Assembly (NCBI GenBank): GCA_029977805.1
Contig: JAPOKE010000008.1
Span: 1 to 37,287 of the forward strand
DNA: 37,287 nt
Direction of reading: 5' to 3'
DNA from: Phenylobacterium parvum
Lineage (GTDB): Bacteria; Pseudomonadota; Alphaproteobacteria; Caulobacterales; Caulobacteraceae
Shown here: piece by piece, positions 23,948 through 26,536 of the stretch
Layout of the letters: each line of letters opens with the position of its first letter
How positions within the stretch are numbered: the first letter of the stretch is position 1
Position numbers and translations under genes: made by a program
Notes under the pieces: model-generated
What the model saw: only the letters and a program-made list of their open reading frames with translations
The model's database searches: none
Told to the model about the DNA's origin: nothing

Positions 23948-24442
23948 TCAGTCGTCCGAGACGGTCTCGGCGACGGAAGCGGTCTGGGCCGCGCGCCAGT
24001 CGGCGAGGCGCCCGGCGAGTTCCGGGTCCGATAGCGCCAGGATCTGTGCGGCCAGCTGGCCGGCGTTGCGGGCTCCGGCCTCGCCGATGGCCAGGGTCGC
24101 CACCGGCACGCCCGCGGGCATCTGGACGATCGACAGCAGGCTGTCCATGCCCTTGAGGGCGCGGGACTCCACGGGCACGCCGAGGACGGGAAGGTCGGTG
24201 AGGGAGGCCGTCATCCCGGGCAGGTGGGCGGCGCCCCCCGCCCCGGCGATGATCACCCTGACGCCGGCGGCCCTGGCCCCGCGGGCGAACTCCACCATGC
24301 GCAGGGGGGTCCGGTGGGCCGAGACCACGCGGGCCTCCCAGCGCACGCCCAGGGCGTCGAGCATGTCGGCGGCGCCCTTCAGGGTCGGCCAGTCCGAACG
24401 GCTGCCCATGATGATGGCGACGGGCGCGGCGGCGGCACTCAT
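23948..24442 (-). CDS. purE: N5-carboxyaminoimidazole ribonucleotide mutase
   Basis: 164 aa; [53 protein letters not shown]. Confidence 0.97.
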
Positions 24443-24567
24443 GTCACGGGCCCTCTGGCGGCGAGGCGCGCGAGAATAGGCGCCGCCTTCCCCGGGTCAA
24501 CACACCCTGTGGATAATGTTATGGTTAACAATGATTCGCGGGCCGCTCCCCGGGGCGCGGAGGTCTC

Positions 24568-25290
24568 ATGGTCTTGAAGGTCACGGGCGCGAGGAACCAG
24601 CCGTTTTCGGACATCCGCAAGCGCGCCCTCGTGCAGGCGGGAGCCAAGGTCGTGGGGCGCGGGCCGACGCGGCCCGACGAGACCGCCTTCCTGGGCCTTT
24701 CGGAGGCCGACCTCACACCGGCCGTCCAGGGCGCGATCCGGACCCTCCTCACCGAGATCGATGACCTCCGCCAGGAGGTGGCGCGGCTGAAGGCCCAGCT
24801 CGTCCAGGCCGAGGCCGTGGCCGACCAGGACCCCCTCACCCCGGTCCTCAACCGCCGGGCCCTGATGCGGGAGCTGGACCGGATCCGGACCTTCAGCCAC
24901 CGCTACGGCTCGCCGGCCGCCCTGGTCTATCTCGACCTCGACGACTTCAAGGGCGTCAACGACCGGTTCGGCCACGCCGCAGGCGACGCCGCGCTCCGGG
25001 CGGTGGCCGAGCGCCTCCGGTCGCAGGTCTCCGGCTCGGACCTGGTGGCCCGGATGGGTGGAGACGAATTCGCGGTCCTCTACAGCCAGGCCAGCCTGCC
25101 CGTGGCCGAGGCGCGCGCCCGGAGCCTGGCCAAGGTCCTGGAATCCAGCCCGATCCGTTTCGGCGAGTGGTCGGCGCCCCTCCACGTCTCCTACGGGGTC
25201 GCCGAGGTGACCCCCGACATCGAGGGCGAGGAGGTCGTGGCCCGCGCCGATGCGGCGATGTACGCGCGAAGGCGCGAACGCCGGGGCTGA
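24568..25290 (+). CDS. Diguanylate cyclase (GGDEF), N-terminal coiled-coil
   Basis: 240 aa; LDLDDFKGVNDRFGHAAGDAALRAVA and RMGGDEFAVLY; coiled-coil-like LLTEIDDLRQEVARLKAQLVQAEAVA before the domain. Confidence 0.92.
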   Translation: MVLKVTGARNQPFSDIRKRALVQAGAKVVGRGPTRPDETAFLGLSEADLTPAVQGAIRTLLTEIDDLRQEVARLKAQLVQAEAVADQDPLTPVLNRRALMRELDRIRTFSHRYGSPAALVYLDLDDFKGVNDRFGHAAGDAALRAVAERLRSQVSGSDLVARMGGDEFAVLYSQASLPVAEARARSLAKVLESSPIRFGEWSAPLHVSYGVAEVTPDIEGEEVVARADAAMYARRRERRG

Positions 25291-25903: not shown

Positions 25904-26536
25904 TCAGTCCTCCTCGTCGGCCTGGGGCCAGGGTTCGGCCGTGGTCTCGGCCGCGGGCTCGAGGGTCGGCCCCTCGGGCTCGACAATGCCCTTGCGGGCG
26001 TTGTCGCGGGCGCGCTTCTCGGCCGCCTTGCGGACGATCTCGTCCAGCTCGATCTGGGTCGAGAGGCCCAGGCTGACCGGGTCGACCGGCTTGATGTTGG
26101 CCGAATTCCAGTGCGTGCGGTTACGCACCTGGTCGATGGTGGCCTTGGTGGTGCCGAGCAGGCGGGCGATCTGGGCGTCGGCCACCTCGGGGTGGTTGCG
26201 GACGAACCAGGCGATGGCGTCGGGGCGGTCCTGGCGACGCGAGACCGGGGTGTAGCGCGGGGCCTTCTTGGCCGGCTTCAGGTGCTCGGCGTGCCGGCTC
26301 TTCAGGGCCGTCATGCGGCGCTTGGGGTCTCCCTGCGCAGCGTCGATCTCCTCACGGGAGAGCTGGCCATTGGCGATGGGGTCGGCGCCGCGGATGTCCC
26401 GGGCGACCTCGCCGTCGGCGATGCCCTTCACCTCGAGCGGGTGGAGGCCGCAGAAATCGGCGATCTGCTCGAAGGTCAGCGAGGTGTTGTCGACCAGCCA
26501 GACGGCGGTCGCCTTCGGCATCAGAATGTCGGCCAT
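25904..26536 (-). CDS. trcR: DUF1013 protein, cell-cycle transcriptional regulator TrcR family
   Basis: 210 aa MADILMPKATAVWLVDNTSLTFEQIADFCGLHPLEVKGIADGEVA...RPDAIAWFVRNHPEVADAQIARLLGTTKATIDQVRNRTHWN. Confidence 0.92.
   Translation of the reverse strand: MADILMPKATAVWLVDNTSLTFEQIADFCGLHPLEVKGIADGEVARDIRGADPIANGQLSREEIDAAQGDPKRRMTALKSRHAEHLKPAKKAPRYTPVSRRQDRPDAIAWFVRNHPEVADAQIARLLGTTKATIDQVRNRTHWNSANIKPVDPVSLGLSTQIELDEIVRKAAEKRARDNARKGIVEPEGPTLEPAAETTAEPWPQADEED

Follow-up and report, generated by a model that had tools for sequence, protein, structure and literature searches.

We propose that a small AT-rich island in a 37,287-nucleotide stretch of Phenylobacterium parvum DNA (the window) is the promoter of a GGDEF diguanylate cyclase gene, very probably orthologous to Caulobacter dgcA, and that this promoter is activated by CcrM/GcrA and repressed by CtrA, with activity during S phase or at the early predivisional stage. 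We consider this account probable; the transcription start, CtrA repression, methylation and timing are what we infer for this species. Comparison of orthologous loci indicates that the GANTC site upstream of the gene is a real conserved element and supports a CtrA half-site that turns over between lineages; of these two inputs, CtrA binding is less certain. The initial annotation had read a DnaA box, a CtrA half-site and a GANTC site here as a sign of cell-cycle-timed control. For the diguanylate cyclase gene this idea holds up through GANTC and probably through the CtrA half-site, given their conservation and the regulators encoded in the genome, and the DnaA part falls away.

The GGDEF gene (start 24568, plus strand) and purE (23948-24442, minus strand, start 24442; Pfam AIRC, 210 bits) are divergent and separated by 125 bp. 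Within this gap, the 31-bp island at 24507-24537 is 68% AT, compared with 26% and 13% AT in its flanks, in a window of 70% GC. Re-checking the sequence confirmed the positions first noted for the three motifs: TGTGGATAA at 24508-24516, ATGGTTAA at 24521-24528 and GATTC at 24533-24537. A near-TTAA one base off the canonical N7 spacing had also been described; the word at N8 is indeed TTAT, but the word at N7 is ATTA, and hence there is no full TTAA-N7-TTAA site. The assembly carrying the window (2.29 Mb, 86% complete) encodes CtrA (413 bits), GcrA, DnaA and a protein with a RAMA domain as in CcrM. The gene for another cell-cycle regulator, the RNA-polymerase-associated TrcR (DUF1013), lies about 0.6 kb past the GGDEF gene, at 25904-26536, and trcR is likewise near dgcA in C. 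vibrioides OR37.

The GGDEF gene (24568-25290; Pfam GGDEF, 118 bits) encodes 240 amino acids with an intact GGDEF motif (MGGDEF), and its Caulobacter orthologs encode about 237-241 amino acids with RESD ahead of GGDEF. DgcA of C. crescentus is CC3285 (PMC3764195), its I-site is RESD (PMC10127611), and CC3286 is a single-domain response regulator (PMC5964349); the gene next to the C. vibrioides OR37 ortholog encodes a 120-aa single-domain response regulator (L041:3850-4212). Because the RESD I-site and the response-regulator neighbor of the Caulobacter orthologs match CC3285/CC3286, sequence features and gene order make the window gene very probably dgcA, and we refer to it by this name. CC3094 was dropped as the C. 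crescentus counterpart, since the CC3286 neighbor type and RESD point to CC3285, and phosphate control via CCNA_03191 (PMC10723716) was set aside because the identity of that gene with the window gene is not demonstrable. The closest PDB matches were generic GGDEF domains only. CC3286 is missing in P. zucineum (PMC2529317), and the window likewise contains no counterpart. In the window protein, the position of the RxxD I-site reads SGSD. The arginine is lost in the window species and its five closest relatives (SGSD, AGSD, SGPD, APTD, ADTD and ADND), while RESD or RDSD is kept in Caulobacter, most other Phenylobacterium and nearly all other orthologs. Since the gene has remained adjacent to purE, we read the absence of the I-site as a loss within the ortholog, and feedback inhibition may have been lost in the window clade.

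To evaluate the motifs, we collected 59 distinct purE-dgcA gaps from Phenylobacterium, Caulobacter and relatives, 46 of them non-redundant once near-duplicates were removed, and counted motifs in the 130 bp preceding dgcA in the non-redundant set against shuffled sequence. Shuffle controls ignore shared ancestry; controls with neighboring genes partly account for relatedness. The check named in the initial annotation, conservation of GANTC upstream of orthologs, gave a clear answer: the motif lies near the GGDEF start in all 59 gaps and in 46/46 non-redundant ones, against 16.7 ± 3.2 (maximum 25) in shuffles. Within part of this locus set, GANTC is found ahead of dgcA in 19/19 cases and is far less frequent before the neighboring genes purK (6/17), DUF465 (1/10) and trcR (2/7). 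For scale, the window holds 52 GANTC sites, and about 16% of 125-bp stretches are expected to contain one. GATTC on the dgcA strand was found in 41/46 gaps (6.4 ± 2.4 in shuffles), and because the five remaining gaps hold GANTC in another form, the kept feature appears to be GANTC rather than GATTC. Among more divergent GGDEF neighbors of purE (43-53% identity, N terminus not alignable), GANTC precedes the best start in some only.

The window site also has an extended form. It reads TGATTCG (24532-24538, plus strand, with the CcrM GANTC site at 24533-24537), GATTCG being invariant in aligned columns across the six closest species, that is, the window species and its five closest relatives. YGAKTCK occurs in 26 of the 46 orthologs, compared with 5.0 in shuffles. 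In C. crescentus, the extended YGAKTCG/K form is associated with GcrA activation, which has been proposed to occur at methylated TGATTCG-type sites (PMC7987155). As no preference for an extended motif was reported in Brevundimonas (PMC7987155), we take the TGATTCG form as weaker evidence than the conserved GANTC itself. Many Phenylobacterium orthologs (e.g., L014, L018 and L006) carry two GATTC sites 24-30 bp apart (16/46, versus 0.2 in shuffles), the first overlapping the predicted -10 element and the second near the start codon, with constant spacing.

The DnaA box fared differently. The consensus string TTATCCACA (24508-24516, minus strand) is an exact match and occurs once in the whole 2.29-Mb assembly. 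It overlaps the hexamer GATAAT (24512-24517, plus strand), which we predict to be the dgcA -10 element. The columns homologous to this hexamer in the window species and its five closest relatives read GATAAT, CATAAT, AAACAT, TAAAAT, TAAAAT and TACAAT, with A2, A5 and T6 invariant as for a -10 element, and the distance between GATAAT and the purE -10 equals that seen for the -10 elements of other Phenylobacterium orthologs (counted by eye). Those other orthologs have a TTGCG-type -35, a 16-17-bp spacer and a TAnGAT -10 overlapped by GATTC; no dgcA -35 is recognizable in the window clade. In the window species alone, TGTG followed by GATAA yields TTATCCACA on the opposite strand. The box is present in 1 of 46 orthologs, already missing in the closest species, and exact DnaA-box strings in related genomes number 1-5 each, below the reversed control. 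We also considered, and regard as very improbable, a node of three regulators in which DnaA, next to CtrA and CcrM/GcrA, links dgcA to the initiation of replication, and does so in this species alone. A perfect 9-mer that is the sole copy in its assembly would fit such a node, as would the fact that some C. crescentus promoters combine DnaA sites with CtrA half-repressor or GcrA sites (PMC4287350), but the -10 hexamer explains the box, and DnaA, if bound, would cover the -10. Regulation of dgcA by DnaA was rejected on conservation, and the box proposed as a functional element is, judging from the alignments, almost certainly a coincidence, a by-product of a -10 sequence preceded by TGTG. Elsewhere, a different locus (L166, about 600-1150) contains, in addition to several GANTC sites, TGTGGATAA, ATGGTTAA and a further TGTGGAT, and is reminiscent of an origin of replication or of a region under strong cell-cycle control.

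The third motif, the CtrA half-site TTAACCAT (24521-24528, minus strand), is an exact match that sits over the predicted, unmapped transcription start point and is enriched in orthologs. Its conservation upstream of orthologs is supported, with TTAACCAT in 16/46 non-redundant gaps against 0.1 in shuffles (maximum 1), a more than 100-fold excess; the shorter TTAAC occurs in 31/46 gaps versus 6.2. Its position is lineage-specific, changing together with orientation among orthologs, and half of the six closest species have lost the exact TTAACCAT and retain only GTTAA. The 2.29-Mb assembly has nine copies of TTAACCAT in total, another of which lies upstream of fliL. The composite ATGGTTAA-N0-25-GATTC occurs once in this assembly, at the dgcA locus; across 40 genomes of the genus it has 27 occurrences, compared with 0 for the reversed control. 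The orthologs confirm that the combination of CtrA half-site and GANTC is, as a sequence pattern, well beyond chance. In related genomes, the composite also precedes tipF (NF051880, 677 bits) and, in several Phenylobacterium genomes, an operon that pairs a single-domain response regulator with a CtrA-like regulator (L156, L157, L160, L163 and L170). The CtrA-like protein, which is cut short, reaches 273 bits against the CtrA model, less than the 350-bit cut-off, and the operon is possibly a second CtrA branch. Further matches lie upstream of a TPR-glycosyltransferase-41 protein (L164) and, read by eye, in an apparent pilA promoter (L158); several others have no clear link. The window's own assembly, which is incomplete, yielded no tipF.

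These data bear on a simpler account, in which only GcrA and CcrM control dgcA and the window half-site has no function, being a TTAA-rich leftover of an AT-rich promoter core. In its favor, every gap has GANTC, TTAACCAT is found in a third of the non-redundant gaps with shifting position and orientation, and the full CtrA site TTAA-N7-TTAA is absent from the window gap and from all 46 orthologous gaps (0/46). Against this stand the excess of TTAACCAT over shuffles and the recurrence of the composite before tipF and the CtrA-like regulator operon, and we regard control by GcrA/CcrM only as unlikely.

The initial annotation had left purine synthesis as an alternative target, and the 125-bp region is indeed common to both genes, with the sites just upstream of the purE -35. 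That the sites serve purE, or both genes, is nevertheless hardly credible. In Caulobacter orthologs the gap widens to about 185-280 bp and the last GATTC is mostly 13-17 bp from dgcA; across orthologs the distance from the sites to dgcA is kept, while that to purE ranges between about 60 and about 250 bp. At two loci where no GGDEF neighbor was found in the fetched stretch (L029 and L020), the 199 bp before purE contain neither GANTC nor TTAACCAT. Moreover, a consensus scan identified a separate, near-consensus purE promoter in the window (TTGACC-16-TATTCT, 24473-24500, minus strand), and most orthologs have an equivalent. The sites track the GGDEF start, and purE was rejected as their target on these distances and on the loci lacking a GGDEF neighbor. 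L111, from the same genome as L029, likewise has no GGDEF gene beside purE in the fetched stretch, and in L029 a DUF465-like gene lies directly beside purE. In many Phenylobacterium (e.g., L010 and L014), the divergent purE and dgcA promoters overlap at the -35 in the palindrome TTGCGCCCGCAA; because these -35 elements are shared, the two genes may compete for polymerase.

Our model of a CcrM/GcrA-activated, CtrA-repressed promoter would thus operate as follows. The island at 24507-24537 would be the core promoter of dgcA, which encodes a soluble diguanylate cyclase. RNA polymerase would use the -10 GATAAT with a poor -35 and start near 24524, placing ATGGTTAA at about -3 to +5 and GATTC at about +10 to +14. 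CcrM would methylate the GANTC at 24533, and GcrA with the housekeeping sigma factor would recognize the methylated TGATTCG and turn dgcA on. When CtrA is high, in swarmer and late predivisional cells, its phosphorylated form would block dgcA via the half-site over the start. The predicted outcome is that dgcA is transcribed with the timing of tipF, during S phase or at the early predivisional stage, with purE driven by its own promoter.

Several features of this model have precedents. In both C. crescentus and B. subvibrioides, dgcA is reported as a member of the GcrA regulon, in which it was singled out as the c-di-GMP enzyme; it is timed like tipF, a GcrA-activated gene (PMC7987155). The window gene is very probably this gene, and its conserved GANTC would lead one to expect GcrA/CcrM input. 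We found no statement on a CtrA half-site or on cis-site conservation at dgcA in the literature examined; relative to published dgcA, these two aspects come here from sequence comparison and concern another genus. In C. crescentus, CtrA represses from half-sites that overlie the -10, and ctrA P1 and mipZ P2 both have a repressor CtrA half-site near the -10 (PMC4287350). ctrA P1 has a GANTC too, at about -29, unlike the window GANTC, which lies downstream of the predicted start. In the C. crescentus GANTC promoters analyzed in PMC4287350, GANTC is upstream of the start. A GANTC at about +10 is therefore unusual compared with mapped C. crescentus promoters, and either the predicted start or the mechanism might have to be revised. 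The tipF promoter of close Phenylobacterium relatives (L155 and L172) likewise has ATGGTTAA and then GATTC just before the start, separated by 15 bases, in contrast to 4 at dgcA in the window.

The universal GANTC provides a simple sequence-level reason for the presence of dgcA in the GcrA regulon and extends it to Phenylobacterium, and the recurring CtrA half-site offers a testable second input. The locus also illustrates how a chance DnaA box is distinguished from conserved elements. More tentatively, dgcA could be a long-standing CcrM/GcrA target that kept one GANTC near the start codon while its second input was rewired by lineage. As part of this possible but doubtful scenario, many Phenylobacterium would have gained a second GANTC over the -10, and the CtrA half-site would have come to lie over the start in the window clade and another Phenylobacterium group, with two Caulobacter groups having it over the -10 and in the spacer, respectively. 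If this scenario is true, the locus would represent a natural series in which CtrA and methylation inputs replace one another, and a methylation site in the first transcribed bases would time the synthesis of c-di-GMP, which helps time the Caulobacter cell cycle.
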